Source: Pseudomonadaceae bacterium (GTDB lineage Bacteria > Pseudomonadota > Gammaproteobacteria > Pseudomonadales > Azotimanducaceae). Taken from it: 64,000 bases of DNA. The notes under the pieces are model-generated. The model did no database searches. It had not been told where the DNA came from and saw only the letters and a list, made by a program, of their open reading frames with translations. Each line of letters begins with the position of its first letter. Within the stretch, counting starts at the first letter, position 1. The stretch covers positions 1-64,000 of the forward strand of contig JANSXA010000006.1 of the NCBI GenBank assembly GCA_024743175.1, in the 5' to 3' direction. The translations under genes and the position numbers were made by a program. This document shows positions 34,693-57,568 of the stretch, piece after piece.

Positions 34693-36503
34693 AGGTACAT
34701 GACCGATAATAACCACGTTAACGTTATCCACATGAGCACGGTTAACGGTACGCCCACTTTGACAAACTCGCGAAAAGTATAGTTGCCAGCGCTCATCACC
34801 AGCAGGTTGGTTTTGTAGGCCATGGGTGTTGCGTAGCTCATGTTGGCGCCAAACAATACCGCCAGTACAAAAGGCTCTGCAGGCAGTTGCAGCGCCTGCG
34901 CAATACCCACAGCAATCGGGGTGCCGATGACTGCTGCTGCATTGTTGGAGACGATGTTGGTCAACACCGCAAGCAATAACATCAGCGCTGAGAGCACAAC
35001 GATAGGTGGGGAACCTGCGGTGACATATAAAAACACTTCAGTCAGATAGACCGTTGCCCCGGTGACTTGTAGCGCCATGCCCAACGCCAGGCTTGCCGCC
35101 ACTACAAAATAGACCGAAGGGCTGATCGCTCGCAGGGATTCACCGATAGATAGACAACGGGTCAGCAGCATAGCGGCACATCCTGCAACTGCTGCAATGG
35201 CGATGGGCATGATACCCAGCGCCGCCATACTAACTACCGTTGCCAGGATGCCCAGCGCCAGCGGCGCACGCGCAGAGCTGGGAAGATCAACACTGCTGTC
35301 TAACACCATGAATTCTGTAGAGCGTTTCAGCAGGCTGAGCTGTTCTTTCGGGCCCTGTACCAGCAACACGTCGCCAGGCTGCAGGATAACTTCGTGAATC
35401 TCTTCTGTTGCGCGCCAGACATCTTTGCCCGCGCGATGTAATGCAAGAACGGCAAGCTGATAGCGATCAAGAAACCGTGCATAACTCAGGTTAGCCCGGT
35501 CAAGACTTGAACCCTGCACAACGGCAATCTCTGCCAGAGTCTGATTCTCTCCGGCCAGCGGGTGTTCGTCATCTACCCGTGTATCACCGGAATAGAGTTC
35601 GGCTTTCAGAGCTTCTTCGAATTTCTTCAGATTGCTGGGAGTGTCCTGCACGCGAAGCCTGTCACCTGCCTTCAGCACGACATCCGGCAGCGGCATAACC
35701 ATAGTTTCACCTCGACGCACGCGCACCACTTTCATATCGCCGCCAGTAAGTGCGATGGCGTCACCCAGGGTTTTGCCCAGCACCAGAGAGTTTTCTTTCA
35801 ACAACAGGCGTGCATTGAACAATCGAGGTGAAGGATCTAATAGTTTTGATTCGCGCTCGGGCAACAGTAGAGGTGCGATAAGCCACAAGTAGACAATGCC
35901 CACACAGGCGGCGATAGACGCAGGGAGCGCAAAATCGAACAGGCCAAATGCTTCAAGTCCCAGATCGGCGGCAACATTAACCACCAGCAGATTTGTTGAT
36001 GTGCCGATAGTGGTTGCCATGCCACCGAGAAGAGTGGCAAATCCCATGGGCATTAATACTTTGGCTGGCGATGATTTGTTGCGCAGACAGACGCTGATCA
36101 GAATAGGCAACAGTAAAACGACAATGGGTGTGTTGTTCACAAAAGCAGACAGGAATGCACCTACCACCAGTGTTAACAACAGAGAAAGGAATGGCGCGCG
36201 CCCCCAGAGTTTGCCCAGCAAACGTCCAACAGGCTCTAAAGCGCCGGTTCGCACAAGCCCCTGGCCCAAAATCATGAGCGCACAGACGGCGATCAGCGCC
36301 TCATTGGCGAAGCCGGAGAAGAGTTTCACCGGGTCAAAATCCGCGTAGGGAAACAGCGCGAAGACAACCACCAGGATGACCAGAAGTGACAGCGATGTAA
36401 CTTCCAACAGCCAGTTGTCTTTGCTGAACGCGTAGAGGGCAGCCACTGTCAGCAGCATCACGCCCAGGGCATGTACGTTAGGTAGGTCTGGAAACTCAAT
36501 CAT
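34689..36503 (-). CDS. SLC13/DASS-type permease with two RCK_C domains
   Basis: 604 aa. N-terminal helices contain FVNNTPIVVLLLPI and GTSTNLLVV, the paired NT(P) sodium/anion sites of SLC13 carriers. The middle (about residues 210-390) has two TrkA-C regulatory domains, and the second membrane half carries the repeat IVSNNAAAVIGTPIAV. This architecture matches sulfate-type SLC13 permeases (SAC1/SLT-like). It is coupled to the sulfatase by a 4-base overlap and to MscS by 8 bases, so uptake of sulfate released by the sulfatase is the likely job. Confidence 0.85.
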   Translation of the reverse strand: MIEFPDLPNVHALGVMLLTVAALYAFSKDNWLLEVTSLSLLVILVVVFALFPYADFDPVKLFSGFANEALIAVCALMILGQGLVRTGALEPVGRLLGKLWGRAPFLSLLLTLVVGAFLSAFVNNTPIVVLLLPILISVCLRNKSSPAKVLMPMGFATLLGGMATTIGTSTNLLVVNVAADLGLEAFGLFDFALPASIAACVGIVYLWLIAPLLLPERESKLLDPSPRLFNARLLLKENSLVLGKTLGDAIALTGGDMKVVRVRRGETMVMPLPDVVLKAGDRLRVQDTPSNLKKFEEALKAELYSGDTRVDDEHPLAGENQTLAEIAVVQGSSLDRANLSYARFLDRYQLAVLALHRAGKDVWRATEEIHEVILQPGDVLLVQGPKEQLSLLKRSTEFMVLDSSVDLPSSARAPLALGILATVVSMAALGIMPIAIAAVAGCAAMLLTRCLSIGESLRAISPSVYFVVAASLALGMALQVTGATVYLTEVFLYVTAGSPPIVVLSALMLLLAVLTNIVSNNAAAVIGTPIAVGIAQALQLPAEPFVLAVLFGANMSYATPMAYKTNLLVMSAGNYTFREFVKVGVPLTVLMWITLTWLLSVMYL

Positions 36504-37518
36504 TAGGCGAATCGAACTTTTCGACGAGATCGGTCAATGCCTGAATCTGGTGTTTGCGCCAGGAAATTTCGGAGGCGTGCGCTTCGGCATCCTGATCTTC
36601 AAGTTCTTTAATTTCATCCCCTAAGGTTTTGGCGTGCTCGCGAAATCGTTCAATGCGCGCAGCAAGATCGGCTCGATCGAACATCATGCGTTCGGCTTTG
36701 CCGTGATCAGTATCATCTTCAACTGCCATCTGTTTTTTGGGTACCACTGCTTTTTCCGGATCGATGGGTCGCTGGTTCATCACTGTTGGCGTCATGATTT
36801 CAACGCCACCATTGTGCAGAGTGTCAAGCATCTGCGCTTTCAGGTCACTACGCGTCGTGACAAGTTTTCCAACGTCTGTCAGAAACCCGGTTACACGATA
36901 ACGCACGGCAAAGTCACCAATGTCCAGAATCTGAACAAAGGGGTCGGTGAGGCCGGCACTTTCGGCTGCAACCAGCAACAACTCGCGCACTTTGCGCCGA
37001 TGGGTATCGAAGCCGATACCCACCTCGCTTGAAACCAGAGTCCCGCTCTGGTCGACAATTTTGACCGGATTGCTGATGACAAACATGTTTGGCAGCGCAA
37101 TGGCGTCGCGGTCTTCGCTTTGTATTTCGGTATGCAGCAGGGCTTTTGCGGTAACACGGCCAAATTGGTCCTGAACCTGGATGAAGTCTCCGGTTTTGAA
37201 GGTCCCCATAGCCTTTAACATCAATCCGGCCATGGCGTTGCTGACAAATGAAGTGGACGACAGGGCAATAACCGCCGTCAGCGCATAACCGAACAGGGTT
37301 AACAGCTGGCTTTGGGTTGCGTCATCAAATGGTAGCGCGATAGCTAATGCCATTTGTGAAAAAATAAACAGGCCAACAAAGGCCAGCTGCCGATAAAGAC
37401 GGTTATTGGGATGGTTGAGGTAGCTTCGGCTCAACAGCCAGCCAGCACCAGCGGTGACCCCTACGATAATCAGCAGGGGGACACCCCAATCCACAATGCT
37501 TGTTGGTAACCATTCCAT
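36496..37518 (-). CDS. MscS-family mechanosensitive channel
   Basis: 340 aa from the ATG at 37518; longer readings to 37551 (TTG) exist and no SD decides. Membrane helices lie in the first 110 residues, with AMAGLMLKAMGTFKTGDFIQVQDQFGRVTAKALLHTEIQSED as the pore-lining TM3 and the beta domain of MscS. A charged coiled coil closes the C-terminus (ERFREHAKTLGDEIKELEDQDAEAH). First gene of the MscS-permease-sulfatase operon. Role in osmotic relief is inferred from family. Confidence 0.85.
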   Translation of the reverse strand: MEWLPTSIVDWGVPLLIIVGVTAGAGWLLSRSYLNHPNNRLYRQLAFVGLFIFSQMALAIALPFDDATQSQLLTLFGYALTAVIALSSTSFVSNAMAGLMLKAMGTFKTGDFIQVQDQFGRVTAKALLHTEIQSEDRDAIALPNMFVISNPVKIVDQSGTLVSSEVGIGFDTHRRKVRELLLVAAESAGLTDPFVQILDIGDFAVRYRVTGFLTDVGKLVTTRSDLKAQMLDTLHNGGVEIMTPTVMNQRPIDPEKAVVPKKQMAVEDDTDHGKAERMMFDRADLAARIERFREHAKTLGDEIKELEDQDAEAHASEISWRKHQIQALTDLVEKFDSPND

Positions 37519-37596
37519 CGGCGGCATTGTACGTGGATGCATGGCTGGCAAGAAGGACTACAATTACCGGGTTACCCTGTGATACATTGCCGCGCC

Positions 37597-37662
37597 ATGA
37601 ATACGTGTAAACAATCACAAACCAGCAGCAACCAGCGCACCCGCACTACCGGGTGGGCTTGA
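37597..37662 (+). CDS. putative threonine-rich leader peptide of the thrS attenuator
   Basis: A 21-codon frame from ATG 37597 to TGA 37660 contains five Thr codons (positions 3, 9, 15, 17 and 18), with three of them crowded as T-R-T-T close to its end. It lies 123 bp upstream of the threonyl-tRNA synthetase start, exactly where an attenuator leader peptide would be. No convincing SD precedes it, which lowers confidence in translation. Codons 15-18 sit within CAGCGCACCC (37633-37642) and the following bases, which can pair with the antiterminator strand at 37707-37715. Confidence 0.6.
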   Translation: MNTCKQSQTSSNQRTRTTGWA

Positions 37663-37706
37663 GGCGCTAACGGGCGATTGTTACGCACAGCGGCGACTCT
37701 TAGAAC

Positions 37707-37748
37707 GGGGCGCTGCTTTATAGACCAAACCCCGGAAGGCAGCGCCCC
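37707..37748 (+). promoter_or_regulatory. thrS: antiterminator hairpin of the thrS leader
   Basis: GGGGCGCTGC (37707-37716) pairs perfectly with GCAGCGCCCC (37739-37748), a 10-bp stem whose loop contains the 5' arm of the terminator. The 3' arm occupies the terminator loop, so the two hairpins exclude each other. A possible -10 box TACAAT stands at 37559-37564. Confidence 0.7.
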
Positions 37749-37765
37749 CGGGGTTTTGTGTTTTT
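37727..37765 (+). terminator. thrS: intrinsic terminator (attenuator) upstream of thrS
   Basis: AAACCCCGG (37727-37735) pairs with CCGGGGTTT (37748-37756) around a 12-base loop and is followed by TTTTGTGTTTTT. It lies 20 bp before the thrS start, on the thrS strand, inside the untranslated leader, where only an attenuator makes sense. Confidence 0.8.
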
Positions 37766-37784
37766 GTGCTGAAAAAATTGGGAA

Positions 37785-39662
37785 ATGAAAATGGCTACAT
37801 TTGAACATAGCGGTGACAGTGAGGTGCAGGACGAGCTTTACAAGGTTCGTCACAGTCTTGCGCATGTTATGGCGCAGGCGGTGCTGGAAATGCGCCCCGG
37901 CAGTACGCTGGGCTTTGGGCCACCCATCAGTGATGGCTTTTATTACGACTTCATCTTAAGCGCACCGCTCACGGAAGAAGATTTTCCAGAGCTTGAACGC
38001 CGCATGAAAAAAATCTGTAAAAAAGGTCAGCGTTTTGACCGCGAGGATCTGGACGCCCAGGCAGCTCTTGCGCGCATTGAAGAAATGGGCGAGCCCTACA
38101 AAAAGGAATATGGCGCTGAGCTGATCGAAAAACACGGCCTGGATGGACTGTCGTTTTATCGTAATGGTCCATTCCTGGATATGTGTGAAGGCCCGCATGT
38201 GAATACAACCAAAGATATTCCGCGAGATGCTTTCAAGATCCGCAGCGTGGCCGGCGCCTATTGGCGGGGTAACTCGGATAATGTGATGATGACGCGCATC
38301 TATGTCTGGTCGTTTCTGGATAAAGAAACCCTCGATCAGCATGTCCAGGCTTTTAACGAAGCCCAGGCGCGTGATCACAAAAAGCTGGGCCGCGAGCTCA
38401 GCATCTATGCCATCGATAATGATATTGGCAAAGGTCTGCCGCTGTGGCTGCCCAATGGCACGGTAATTCGAGACGAACTGGAAGCCTACGCCAAAGAGCT
38501 TGAGTTCAAAGCCGGGTTTAAACGTGTAGCAACACCTCATCTTGCCAAAGAAAGCCTGTATCACACCACGGGACACCTCCCGTATTACGCAGAAGACATG
38601 TATCCGGCAATGGAGGTGATGGAGTCCGCTGAGGATGCGGATGCTCACGATGGCGAACGTCGCATCAAAGAGTCTTACCGTCTGCGGCCAATGAACTGTC
38701 CACACCATCACAAGATATTTTCCGCGGAACCGCGCAGTTATCGTGATCTACCTCTGCGCCTGGCTGAATACGGTCAGGTGTATCGTTTTGAAGATTCCGG
38801 TGCGGTTGGCGGGCTGGTGCGTGTGCGTGGCATGGCGATGAATGATGCACACATTTATTGCACCCAGGAGCAGCTGAAAGACGAATTCAAAGCCGTTATC
38901 GAAATGTCCAAAGAGGCTTACTCTGTGCTGGGCCTGGCTGATTTCAAGATTCGTCTTTCGCGCTGGGATCCTGAAGACCCCAAAGGCAAAGACAAGTATG
39001 TCGATAACCCACAGGCCTGGGCAGACTCTGAAGCGTTGCTGCTTGAGGTGATACAGGAGCTGGAAATTCCTTACACAGAAGGTGTGGGGGAGGGCGCGTT
39101 TTACGGTCCGAAACTGGACTTCCAGTTTGTTACGGTAACCGGGCGCGAAGAAACAGTGTCAACGGTGCAGCTTGATTTTGCCGTACCCGAGCGCATGGGT
39201 CTTACCTATGTAGGCCCGGATGGCGCAGAACACACGCCGTTCTGTATTCACCGGGCACCGTTCAGTACTCATGAACGATTTGTCGCTTTCCTGATTGAAC
39301 ATTATGCAGGCGCGTTCCCGACCTGGCTGGCGCCACTGCAGGCACAGATCTTAACTGTTGGTGAGCAGTTTGATGAATATGCAGATGGTATTGTCAGTAA
39401 GCTGCGCGGCCATATGATCCGGGCTGAGCGAGCACCCTCTGATGACACGCTGCCGAAAAAAATCCGTCAGGGCACGGTGCAGAAAATTCCGAATCTGGTG
39501 ATTGTTGGAGAACGCGAAGCGGCTGAGGGTACCATTACCTTACGGCGGTATGGTCATCGCGAACAGCACACGATGAGCGTTGAGAGTTTTGTTGCAGCAA
39601 TGCTGCAAACGGTGAATCAGCGCTCTCTGGAATTTGAGCTGCCAGCCGACCTGAGCAGTTAG
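37785..39662 (+). CDS. thrS: threonyl-tRNA synthetase lacking the TGS domain
   Basis: 625 aa; ATG 37785 or 37791. The N2 editing domain starts at once with H23-SLA-H27 and C134-EGP-H138, its four metal/substrate residues intact; the usual N-terminal TGS (about 60 aa) is absent. The catalytic core has motif 2 (RPMNCPHHHKIF, Cys at 304), YRFEDSGAVGGLVRVRG, NDAHIYC and IHRAPFSTHERF, giving the Cys/His/His zinc triad. The C-terminal anticodon-binding domain is complete. A Glu/Asp-rich insertion (MEVMESAEDADAHDGE) precedes motif 2. MNCPHH and the surrounding residues resemble Bacillus-type enzymes more than E. coli ThrS. infC-rpmI-rplT do not follow it. It may be a second, stress-induced ThrRS. 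Confidence 0.9.
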   Translation: MKMATFEHSGDSEVQDELYKVRHSLAHVMAQAVLEMRPGSTLGFGPPISDGFYYDFILSAPLTEEDFPELERRMKKICKKGQRFDREDLDAQAALARIEEMGEPYKKEYGAELIEKHGLDGLSFYRNGPFLDMCEGPHVNTTKDIPRDAFKIRSVAGAYWRGNSDNVMMTRIYVWSFLDKETLDQHVQAFNEAQARDHKKLGRELSIYAIDNDIGKGLPLWLPNGTVIRDELEAYAKELEFKAGFKRVATPHLAKESLYHTTGHLPYYAEDMYPAMEVMESAEDADAHDGERRIKESYRLRPMNCPHHHKIFSAEPRSYRDLPLRLAEYGQVYRFEDSGAVGGLVRVRGMAMNDAHIYCTQEQLKDEFKAVIEMSKEAYSVLGLADFKIRLSRWDPEDPKGKDKYVDNPQAWADSEALLLEVIQELEIPYTEGVGEGAFYGPKLDFQFVTVTGREETVSTVQLDFAVPERMGLTYVGPDGAEHTPFCIHRAPFSTHERFVAFLIEHYAGAFPTWLAPLQAQILTVGEQFDEYADGIVSKLRGHMIRAERAPSDDTLPKKIRQGTVQKIPNLVIVGEREAAEGTITLRRYGHREQHTMSVESFVAAMLQTVNQRSLEFELPADLSS

Positions 39663-39673
39663 ACCAGCGGGAT

Positions 39674-41980
39674 TTATCCCTCGACGTCGGTATCAGCGTC
39701 CGCGGTAGGTTGCGGTAACGGTGAGTTGGTGCTCGCAGTTGAAATGCTGGAAGGTTTTTCCAGCTGCACAATCTGCATGGAAAGACCCATCAGGTCGAGT
39801 AGGACTTTGCCCGCTTCTTCTAACATGGCATCGTCTTCTACCGCGGTAATCTCAACTTCCGGTTCTGCTGCGTCGGCTGATTCACCACTGTCTGCAACGG
39901 CGTCGTCCGTTGTGCTGTCTGCCTCGGTTTCGGCAGCTTCTTTGGCCTCTTTCTCAGCTTCTACAAGATCATCCAGGTGATCGAGCGATGTAGCCAGCTC
40001 TTTTCCTTTAGCAGTCCGCAAGGTGTTTTCCAGATCCAGGCGCCATTTGTCGTCAGCATCCTTCTGTGCCAGCCGCTTCTCTTTGTTCAGAGACACATGG
40101 GTTCTGGCCGCGGCTTCTTTGCCTTTTGCAGCCAGGGCGCGGACATAGTTGAAGTCGACGTTATCCGCAACGCGTACTTCGTGACGGCGTTGCAGCTCGC
40201 TGATGAAGGGTGCGATGGCGTTGTTGTGGTCGTAAACAGCCGGTTGGATCATATCCCAGGGCATGGCATCTTCGAGCGAGCTTTCGCCAATCTGGTCAGT
40301 GTCGTACAACTCGGGAAATGACACGTCTGGCAGTACGCCCTGATGCTGGGTGCTCTGGCCTGAGACCCGGTAGAACTTGGCCGCCGTGATTTTCAGCTGG
40401 CCACGATTCAAGGGTATGAGTGTCTGCACGGTACCTTTACCAAACGTCTGGCTGCCAATAATGACACCTCGCCCGTAGTCCTGGATGGCACCGGCAAAAA
40501 TCTCCGAAGCTGATGCCGACAGGCGATTGACCATGACCGCCATGGGGCCTTCCCAGGTGATGTCATCGTCGGTGTCTGCATAAACGTTGGCTCGACGGCG
40601 TGCTGACTTTACCTGCACGGTAGGACCTGACTCGATAAACAGGCCGGTTAACGTATCCGCTTCCTGCAGGGAACCACCGCCGTTGTTGCGCAGGTCTATC
40701 ACCAGCCCGTCAATACCTTCTTCTTCTTCCAGCTTATGGATCAGTTTTTTCACATCACGTGTGGTGCTGCGGTAATTTTTGTCCCCTTGCTGCGCGGCGC
40801 GAAAGTCGACGTAAAAAGTGGGTACATCAATGATGCCGATTTTGTACGCCTGATTACCCTGCTCCAGGGTCAGCACTTTGGCCTGTGCAGCCTGCTCTTC
40901 GAGCTTGACGGTGTTGCGGGTAATGGCGACAACGTTACTGACCTCATCTTTACTGTCCGAGGGAATGACTTCCAGACGCACAGTTGAGCCTTTGGGGCCG
41001 CGAATCAGTTCAACAACATCATCAAGACGCCAGCCGACAACGTCGATAAGAGGGCCATTTTCACCCTGGCCAACGCTGATAATTTTATCTTCGACGCCAA
41101 TAGAACCCTCTTTATCGGCAGGCCCGGCGGGCACCAGCCGAACCACTGACGTGGTGTCGTCTTCGCTTTTCAAAACTGCGCCTATGCCTTCTAAAGACAG
41201 CGACATGTTGATATTAAAATTCTGTGAGGTACGCGGTGAAAAGTACTGCGTGTGCGGATCGTAGGTGGTCGCAAATGAGTTCAGGTAGACCTGAAAGGCA
41301 TCTTCACTTTTGGTCTGGACCGCCTGCTTCAACCGGTTCTTATATCGTTTGGTCAGAGATTCACCGATCTTTTCGACTTCTTTATCGTTCAGCTTCATCG
41401 ACAGAACCGCAGCTTTGAGACGCTTGCGCCACAACGCATCCTGTTCAGCCTGGGTGGCTGGCCAGGGGGAATTCTCCCGGTCGATTTCGATGTCTTCATC
41501 GACGGTGAAATCGATATTTTCGATGCCACCTTCAATTTCGTGGATCAGGAAATTAAGGCGATCAACCACCCGCTCCTGATAGCGATTGAACATTGTGAAA
41601 GCGGCGTCCAGATTGCCGCGCTTTAACGCATCGTCCAGTTCATAGCGGTAGGCTTCGAACTCAGCCACGTCGCTGGCCAAAAAGTAAGAACGGCCGCCAT
41701 CCAGAGATTCCAGATAGTTGTCAAAAACCTGACTGGAGATACCGTCGTCCAGAGGTTTTTTGACAAAGTGATTGTGGCGGAGCTGTTCCACCACTGTGAG
41801 GCTGGTCCGCGCGTGTACGTCGAGGGGCTCCAGGACCGGTGCTTTGACATCAACAAAAATTTCTTTTTCGGGGGTGTCTGATGCCTGCGCAAGGTCGCCT
41901 TGGGCCAGTGCGAGGGATGTGTAACTGCCAAAGGCAACAATCAATAAAGCTCGAACGCCGCGATTAAACTGCAAATTCAT
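39674..41980 (-). CDS. prc: carboxy-terminal processing protease Prc/Tsp
   Basis: 768 aa from ATG 41980; the longer reading to 42085 adds a segment without signal-peptide character. The leader ends SLALAQ. A large N-terminal lipoprotein-interaction region, then PDZ (SLEGIGAVLKSEDD...GVEDKIISVGQGENGPLIDV), then the S41 protease: Ser in RLSASASEIFAGA and Lys in SQTFGKGTVQ, near residues 488 and 514, the Ser/Lys dyad. The C-terminal DUF3340 helical domain is followed by an acidic tail. Prc degrades or trims periplasmic proteins and controls peptidoglycan hydrolases. Confidence 0.93.
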   Translation of the reverse strand: MNLQFNRGVRALLIVAFGSYTSLALAQGDLAQASDTPEKEIFVDVKAPVLEPLDVHARTSLTVVEQLRHNHFVKKPLDDGISSQVFDNYLESLDGGRSYFLASDVAEFEAYRYELDDALKRGNLDAAFTMFNRYQERVVDRLNFLIHEIEGGIENIDFTVDEDIEIDRENSPWPATQAEQDALWRKRLKAAVLSMKLNDKEVEKIGESLTKRYKNRLKQAVQTKSEDAFQVYLNSFATTYDPHTQYFSPRTSQNFNINMSLSLEGIGAVLKSEDDTTSVVRLVPAGPADKEGSIGVEDKIISVGQGENGPLIDVVGWRLDDVVELIRGPKGSTVRLEVIPSDSKDEVSNVVAITRNTVKLEEQAAQAKVLTLEQGNQAYKIGIIDVPTFYVDFRAAQQGDKNYRSTTRDVKKLIHKLEEEEGIDGLVIDLRNNGGGSLQEADTLTGLFIESGPTVQVKSARRRANVYADTDDDITWEGPMAVMVNRLSASASEIFAGAIQDYGRGVIIGSQTFGKGTVQTLIPLNRGQLKITAAKFYRVSGQSTQHQGVLPDVSFPELYDTDQIGESSLEDAMPWDMIQPAVYDHNNAIAPFISELQRRHEVRVADNVDFNYVRALAAKGKEAAARTHVSLNKEKRLAQKDADDKWRLDLENTLRTAKGKELATSLDHLDDLVEAEKEAKEAAETEADSTTDDAVADSGESADAAEPEVEITAVEDDAMLEEAGKVLLDLMGLSMQIVQLEKPSSISTASTNSPLPQPTADADTDVEG

Positions 41981-42366
41981 TCTTATATACCACCTGTGCA
42001 GCAGACGTATAAATCCCCCCGCCAATGCCGCAACGTCTGCTAAGATGCGGCACCAAGGCATGTGGCACGTGAAAAAACGCGGCACATATATGTGTGACTG
42101 GCGTGGTACTGACTTGGTTCCCCATCATATACATTGTTCGACGGCAAAAACCTGCATCACAAGTGCTTGTAGTACAAGCGCTGTCCAACAACGTATGCCG
42201 GGCTGCGTCAGCGGTCCAACACGATCTGGGGCCCTTTTTTGTTACCCAGCGGGCCATTATCACCCAGGCAGGTTACCAAACTCACGAGTAGGTCCTGTGT
42301 GGAGAATGTAACCCGGTAGTAATACAGGCCGCAACTAATGGTAATTCGATAAATAAGGACGCGAAA
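41981..42366. other. gene-free divergent promoter region between prc and the FKBP gene
   Basis: 386 bp with no credible gene in any frame. Two palindromes stand out: GCAGACGT (42001-42008) with ACGTCTGC (42033-42040), and AGTGCTTGTA-G-TACAAGCGCT (42162-42182), nearly symmetric and operator-sized. Promoters for both flanking genes should lie here; I do not see a consensus -35/-10 pair I would defend. Confidence 0.5.

Positions 42367-57492: not shown

Positions 57493-57568
<76 letters not shown>

Follow-up and report, generated by a model that had tools for sequence, protein, structure and literature searches.

Comparative evidence for a threonine leader-peptide attenuator in front of a TGS-less threonyl-tRNA synthetase gene in Gammaproteobacteria

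The region in front of the threonyl-tRNA synthetase gene thrS is very likely a ribosome-mediated, threonine-sensing transcription attenuator. It very probably raises thrS expression when charged threonine tRNA is short. The window, i.e. the whole stretch of 64,000 nucleotides that was analysed, carries a threonine-rich leader frame, a terminator and an antiterminator. Comparison between thrS loci points to a conserved Thr frame, to co-variation of the pairing strands and to a -10-like box, and folding models suggest a dependence on the ribosome position. The window's own statistics are weak; significance comes from the relatives.

The thrS gene (37785-39662, forward strand) was assigned by family and domain matches, and its product is named threonine--tRNA ligase in NCBIfam. 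A TGS domain is absent among the Pfam matches of this threonyl-tRNA synthetase (ThrRS), which is the one ThrRS match with E <= 0.001 in the source draft genome. Judging by the starts in relatives, 37791 (ATGGCT) is a likelier start than 37785. The 5′ neighbor of the leader is an MscS-like gene that diverges from it on the minus strand (36496-37551), while a convergent gene for a tail-specific protease (39674-42085, minus strand) follows thrS. Four other genomes (G006, G008, G010 and G030) harbor a TGS-less thrS of 82-83% identity together with another thrS at about 40% identity, compared to the one match in the window's genome.

The leader ORF (37597-37662) comprises ATG, 20 codons and TGA and encodes MNTCKQSQTSSNQRTRTTGWA; all leader elements lie on the forward strand. 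Thr is found at codons 3, 9, 15, 17 and 18, hence at five of 21 codons. The proposed stall site is the Thr codon cluster at 37639-37650, with ACC at 37639-37641, ACT at 37645-37647 and ACC at 37648-37650. Downstream, 37707-37716 (GGGGCGCTGC) and 37739-37748 (GCAGCGCCCC) are perfectly complementary in antiparallel orientation. These 10 perfect pairs extend to an antiterminator helix of 13 pairs (37707-37719 with 37736-37748), with a hairpin energy of -25.4 kcal/mol compared to -18.7 kcal/mol for the terminator. The terminator (37727-37735 with 37748-37756) has 9 bp and a 12-nt loop. It was not listed by a simple terminator scan, because its loop exceeds the 8-nt limit of the scan. The T tract is interrupted (37754-37765), and its end lies 20 nt from the thrS ATG at 37785. 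The first-pass annotation had named the ORF, the antiterminator, the terminator and the T tract, and each was confirmed base for base. The antiterminator arm sits mostly in the terminator loop and has one base in common with the terminator stem; mutual exclusion of the two structures in the window would be steric. Two further pairings involve the same arm. The leader segment 37633-37642 (CAGCGCACCC) can form a helix with 37707-37715 (one bulged A, -15.4 kcal/mol), in agreement with the earlier proposal, and is a possible auxiliary pairing in the window. A hairpin of 37689-37700 with 37707-37717 (-14.9 kcal/mol), absent from that proposal, competes for the antiterminator arm. The fold of the window leader had a z of -2.35 relative to shuffled sequences, and 4 of 200 shuffles were equally good.

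Relatives were considered if their ThrRS shared 64% or more identity with that of the window and if 250 nt or more of upstream sequence was available, which gave 66 loci. Of these, 25 were put aside as near copies and 41 non-redundant thrS loci of the TGS-less family were kept. An automatic terminator finder, applied within 150 nt of thrS, yielded 20 loci with and 21 loci without a terminator; its rate on shuffles was 0 to 0.15 (20 shuffles per locus). For each locus the best 10-codon window of any short upstream ATG frame was taken, and shuffles were scanned identically. The mean best Thr count in the 20 terminator loci was 4.1 per 10 codons versus 1.06 ± 0.24 in the shuffles (z 12.7), followed by Tyr (z 4.3) and Leu (z 3.9). 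No enrichment of Thr was detected in the 21 terminator-less loci (1.14 versus 0.96 in shuffles, z 1.1). At least three Thr in 10 codons occurred in 15 of the 20 terminator loci. A Thr frame was not found in L002, L057, L071 and L108, and the Thr frame of L008 falls outside the scanned range due to an insertion. Examples of leader frames are MKLLHRQTSTLTTDTRTTGVELPAV (L004), MNAVNAINYTTTTTPTLSWVSRRE (L005), MNVEQNKRGLKIRQRTQTRTTGTTTTRGW (L006) and MRHHRFTTTCTLTRTRCGSLRTPVR (L046). The 15 leader ORFs used in the structural tests were chosen by hand for Thr content; Thr represents 88 of their 364 residues, initiator Met excluded, versus 28 of 625 in the window ThrRS. All four Thr codons are used in these leaders (37 ACC, 31 ACG, 18 ACT and 2 ACA).

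On the ThrRS tree, the loci with a Thr leader are spread over several of the deep branches, part of which are unresolved. The Thr-leader label requires at least seven changes on this tree, a value matched by none of 500 shuffles, and an old element that was lost several times is the likeliest history. No Thr leader with terminator was seen by eye within 300 nt of nine TGS-bearing thrS genes of relatives (L023-L030 and L101) and of 11 more distant loci (L060, L062-L065, L074, L078, L084, L091, L092 and L096); this check by eye is weak, carries no statistic and, in the TGS-bearing loci, covers mostly the coding sequence of thrS itself. Several loci deviate in their organization. The terminator of L002 is built from different arms (ACAACCTCGG/CCGAGGTTGT) and is accompanied by an overlapping frame that contains a single Thr-Thr pair; this locus may follow another design. 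In L071 and L108, a promoter-like TATCAT is followed almost directly by the terminator hairpin, the leader frame and strands 2-4 being absent as if deleted. A palindromic insertion of about 160 bp distinguishes L008 from its near copy L009 and lies inside the thrS attenuator, between the leader ORF and the terminator.

A -10-like box, TACATT (37583-37588, forward strand), lies 8 nt 5′ of the leader ATG in the window. It was absent from the first-pass annotation and was recognised solely through comparison between loci; a sigma-70 consensus promoter scan of the window found nothing, and a good -35 word was not found in the window. In 12 of 15 loci, the last base of a TAnnnT motif is 6-10 nt away from the leader ATG that follows it, compared to a mean of 0.87 and a maximum of 5 in 2000 shuffled sets. 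The test was repeated over all in-frame ATGs, because the starts had been chosen partly with the promoter in view, and again gave 12 of 15 loci (shuffle mean 1.29, maximum 7). At 16-18 nt 5′ of the box, TTGCAA occurs in L046 and L056, and TTTGCA in L005 and L052. A Shine-Dalgarno-like word was detected in none of the loci except L058, which has AGGAGG (14 of 15 without). The position of the box just before the ATG suggests an RNA that starts at or next to the AUG, and the thrS leader is therefore probably leaderless. The predicted transcription start in the window is at about 37594-37597.

Folding of the relatives suggested five strands, numbered 2 to 6, in two alternative sets of pairs, 2:3 with 4:5 or 3:4 with 5:6. 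In the window, strand 2 (37651-37669) lies at the end of the leader frame. It would be free with a ribosome stalled on the Thr codons and covered with a ribosome at the stop. Strand 3 (37689-37700) forms the hairpin with strand 4 (37707-37719). Strand 5 (37727-37748) comprises the 5′ arm of the terminator and the loop, of which 37736-37748 pairs with strand 4. The terminator is closed by strand 6 (37748-37756), and strand 6 and the T tract together extend over 37748-37765.

Co-variation was measured with a swap test, which compares the cognate pairing of two strands with the pairing after exchange of the strands between loci. The arms were taken from the folded hairpin in 14 loci; L007 was left out because its leader frame overruns strand 3. 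Excess cognate pairing was found for 4:5 (p 0.00015) and for 2:3 (p 0.0015), while the control 3:5 showed no excess in these 14 loci (p 0.65). For 2:3, the window comes last among the loci (rank 14 of 14). The value for 3:4 (p 0.00005) is circular. For L009, L042 and L046, the automatic arms differ from a choice by eye. A coarser version with whole spacers in 15 loci was weaker than the folded-arm version, with p 0.007 for 4:5 and p 0.039 for 2:3. Its controls gave p 0.034 for the spacer with strand 6, which overlaps the loop, and p 0.14 for 2:5. The terminator pair 5:6 gave no signal in the coarser test (p 0.50) because the terminator arms are nearly invariant. In a shuffle test per locus, the combined values were p 0.0006 for 4:5 and p 4e-6 for 3:4; individually, p <= 0.05 was reached by 2 of 15 loci (4:5) and by 4 of 15 loci (3:4). 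The sequences of the 4:5 helix differ between loci, from GGGGCGCTGC/GCAGCGCCCC in the window to GTCGCCG/CGGCGAC in L005, GAGCGCC/GGCGCTC in L056 and GCCTTTC/GGAAGGC in L053. L002 and L057 were left out of the structural tests, and in L002 no terminator pattern was found after the ORF. The near copies L008 (of L009, with the insertion) and L088 (of L059) were excluded from the structural, position, codon and promoter tests. The core reading of the first-pass annotation was a leader with Thr codons, a terminator and an antiterminator in front of a thrS devoid of TGS. It is supported by the relatives, in which both the conservation of the Thr frame and the co-variation, named there as checks, gave positive results.

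The effect of the ribosome was modelled codon by codon. Masking of the RNA extended up to 12 nt, counted from the first base of the A-site codon, and the cost of an unpaired strand 6 was computed. In 14 of 15 loci, the mean cost over the Thr codons fell below the cost at the stop by a margin above 0.5 kcal/mol; L058 showed no ribosome-position effect in the folding model. Assumed footprints of 9, 12, 15 and 18 nt gave the effect in 14, 14, 13 and 12 of 15 loci, respectively. The mean effect of 4.78 kcal/mol was larger than all 100 shuffle means (0.43 ± 0.72, maximum 2.14), obtained by shuffling the RNA between the stall site and the terminator. In the window, the antitermination cost was lowest at Thr15, 3.0 versus 7.3 at the stop. 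When the footprint was set to 15 or 18 nt, the Thr-codon mean of the window was only 0.4 kcal/mol below the stop. The position effect of the window alone, 1.9 kcal/mol, was not significant (p 0.31).

The co-variation supports a his-like pairing scheme, in which 2:3 and 4:5 would represent the ON state and 3:4 and 5:6 the OFF state. The RNA would start at or a few bases from the leader AUG, and a ribosome would load on the leaderless frame. When Thr-tRNA is ample, the ribosome would reach the stop and cover strand 2. Strands 3 and 4 would then pair, leaving strand 5 free for strand 6, and termination would occur before thrS. When Thr-tRNA is scarce, the ribosome would stall on the Thr codons and leave strand 2 free. 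Formation of 2:3 would enable strand 4 to occupy strand 5 on its loop side, which would keep the terminator open, and thrS would be transcribed. Across the family, 2:3 rather than a direct pairing of the leader is probably the main partner switch; for the window alone this is less certain.

The first-pass annotation had proposed a different switch, a trp-like variant in which the Thr-codon segment 37633-37642 pairs with strand 4 and a stalled ribosome frees strand 4 for the antiterminator. The window itself speaks for it: the pairing is strong, the window's own leader ranks first of 14 for strand 4, as do the leaders of L009 and L046 for theirs, and the window's 2:3 pairing is poor. As a class, however, the pairing of the leader region with strand 4 is weakly conserved (swap test, 14 loci, p 0.046, versus 0.0015 for 2:3 and 0.00015 for 4:5). 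Moreover, the local 3:4 hairpin, which the annotation had overlooked, is left uncovered by a stalled ribosome and would stay as a competitor. As the switch of the family this variant is unlikely, although the direct pairing may contribute in the window.

Control of thrS is known to take other forms. In E. coli, thrS is autoregulated by ThrRS through a protein operator, and in Firmicutes a T-box controls the gene. A real terminator governed by something other than leader translation, e.g. autoregulation by ThrRS, with an incidental Thr frame, would fit the 4 of 20 terminator loci in which the Thr frame is missing. The Thr enrichment stands against it, as nothing comparable was found for other residues or for terminator-less loci, and so does the tie of the position effect to the Thr codons, which leaves this explanation highly improbable. 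A chance arrangement, in which a common intergenic hairpin happens to lie next to a random short frame and regulation is absent, would be compatible with the position effect and the fold of the window taken alone (p 0.31 and z -2.35). It is contradicted by all comparative tests and is even less credible. The chance that a known RNA class such as a T-box or another Rfam family controls thrS is close to negligible: a search of the entire window against Rfam with gathering thresholds gave no T-box or other leader family, only a tRNA at 57493-57565.

A similar element, judging by its sequence, precedes a second gene. An alignment (A1) of 14 of 16 references, without L007 and L088, served to build R1, a covariance model for the thrS attenuator. 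Since A1 aligns strands 3 and 4 poorly, the model is limited to the terminator helix with its 10 pairs. In 40 genomes of the genus, R1 gave 18 matches with E <= 0.001 in 12 genomes. Eight of them are thrS attenuators and six lie before a DAHP synthase gene; the others are L125, L121, L122 and L124. L121 and L122 are plain terminators before what is presumably an obg gene, and L124 belongs to none of the named classes. L125 (G030:C29:98831-98911) is attenuator-like; its leader frame, MTFLNLGLQLIY, is followed by a frame of 125 aa without an NCBIfam match. The DAHP synthase leaders are L129 (G000:C7:205857-205937, in the window's own genome), L126, L127, L128, L130 and L123. The gene behind L129 is a 3-deoxy-7-phosphoheptulonate synthase in NCBIfam, while the names of the remaining five genes are based on the similarity of the protein start. 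Five of the six leader frames end in an aromatic run, e.g. GFSWQGFFTYFYM in L129; the runs include FSWQGFFTYFYM, GWPGFFYLFA and GWRGFTYFFVT. Inspection by eye placed a TAnnnT 7-10 nt 5′ of the leader ATG in five DAHP synthase loci, and neither an aromatic run nor a -10-like box was seen in L123. With a laxer cut-off, R1 gave 12 weaker matches in the window's own genome; no further leader was recognised in the nine inspected. A similar putative attenuator with aromatic codons thus precedes the DAHP synthase gene in the same genome as thrS. It is possible, if on balance somewhat doubtful, that the lineage runs a set of leaderless attenuators, with Thr codons for thrS and aromatic codons for DAHP synthase, in which the RNA has the AUG at its 5′ end and the terminator loop is blocked by the antiterminator.

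The proposed mechanism is of a classical kind. The his operon leader of enteric bacteria has a residue-rich leader peptide, a hairpin chain and a Rho-independent terminator. The thrS leader resembles it in a peptide rich in the sensed residue, in a stalled ribosome that would shift the hairpin register, and in the Rho-independent terminator. It differs in its tRNA synthetase target, in being probably leaderless and in an antiterminator that sits mostly in the terminator loop. Leader-peptide attenuation of a tRNA synthetase operon is known from pheM-pheST of E. coli, which differs in sensing Phe and in the operon that it controls. The thrL-thrABC system of E. coli also combines a Thr-codon leader peptide with a terminator, whereas its target is a biosynthetic operon and its leader contains Ile codons as well. 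The main surveys of proteobacterial attenuators are reportedly that of Vitreschak et al. 2004 and later work, and an earlier prediction of a thrS attenuator in some proteobacterium may exist.

Among open-licence PubMed Central papers, one thrS leader peptide was found, in Streptomyces lividans TK24, and none for this bacterial group. According to the available part of that paper, thrL lies upstream of thrS, is leaderless and encodes 18 residues with two Thr, and termination is reported as unclear (PMC8079986). The likeness consists in a Thr-containing leader peptide before thrS, leaderless there and probably so here; the differences are the two Thr in 18 residues and the actinobacterial host (PMC8079986). 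In Sinorhizobium meliloti, trpL is a leaderless attenuator whose RNA 5′ end coincides with the ATG of the leader peptide, as far as the accessible text describes it (PMC7298713). An attenuator RNA beginning at the leader ATG would be shared with the thrS leader, while trpL belongs to an alphaproteobacterium, senses Trp and precedes trpE(G). The accessible portion of a survey of premature terminators names threonyl-tRNA synthetase once, for the autoregulated case of E. coli (PMC2965389), and that of a survey of Actinobacteria contains no occurrence of thrS or threonyl (PMC1262725). The first-pass annotation had regarded a leader-peptide attenuator for thrS as new. This claim is qualified by the leader peptide annotated for S. 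lividans in the available text (PMC8079986), and no report of thrS as the target of such a mechanism in this bacterial group was found among the open-licence papers.

Taken together, the comparisons argue strongly that a threonyl-tRNA synthetase gene of Gammaproteobacteria is controlled by leader-peptide attenuation. The lineage, whose ThrRS lacks the TGS domain, may use a control logic other than the protein operator or the T-box. A gammaproteobacterial attenuator with a probably leaderless leader would offer a simple system for probing how the first ribosome couples to RNA polymerase. If leaderless attenuators indeed precede both thrS and the DAHP synthase gene, a ribosome loading at the extreme 5′ end would trail RNA polymerase from the first codons.
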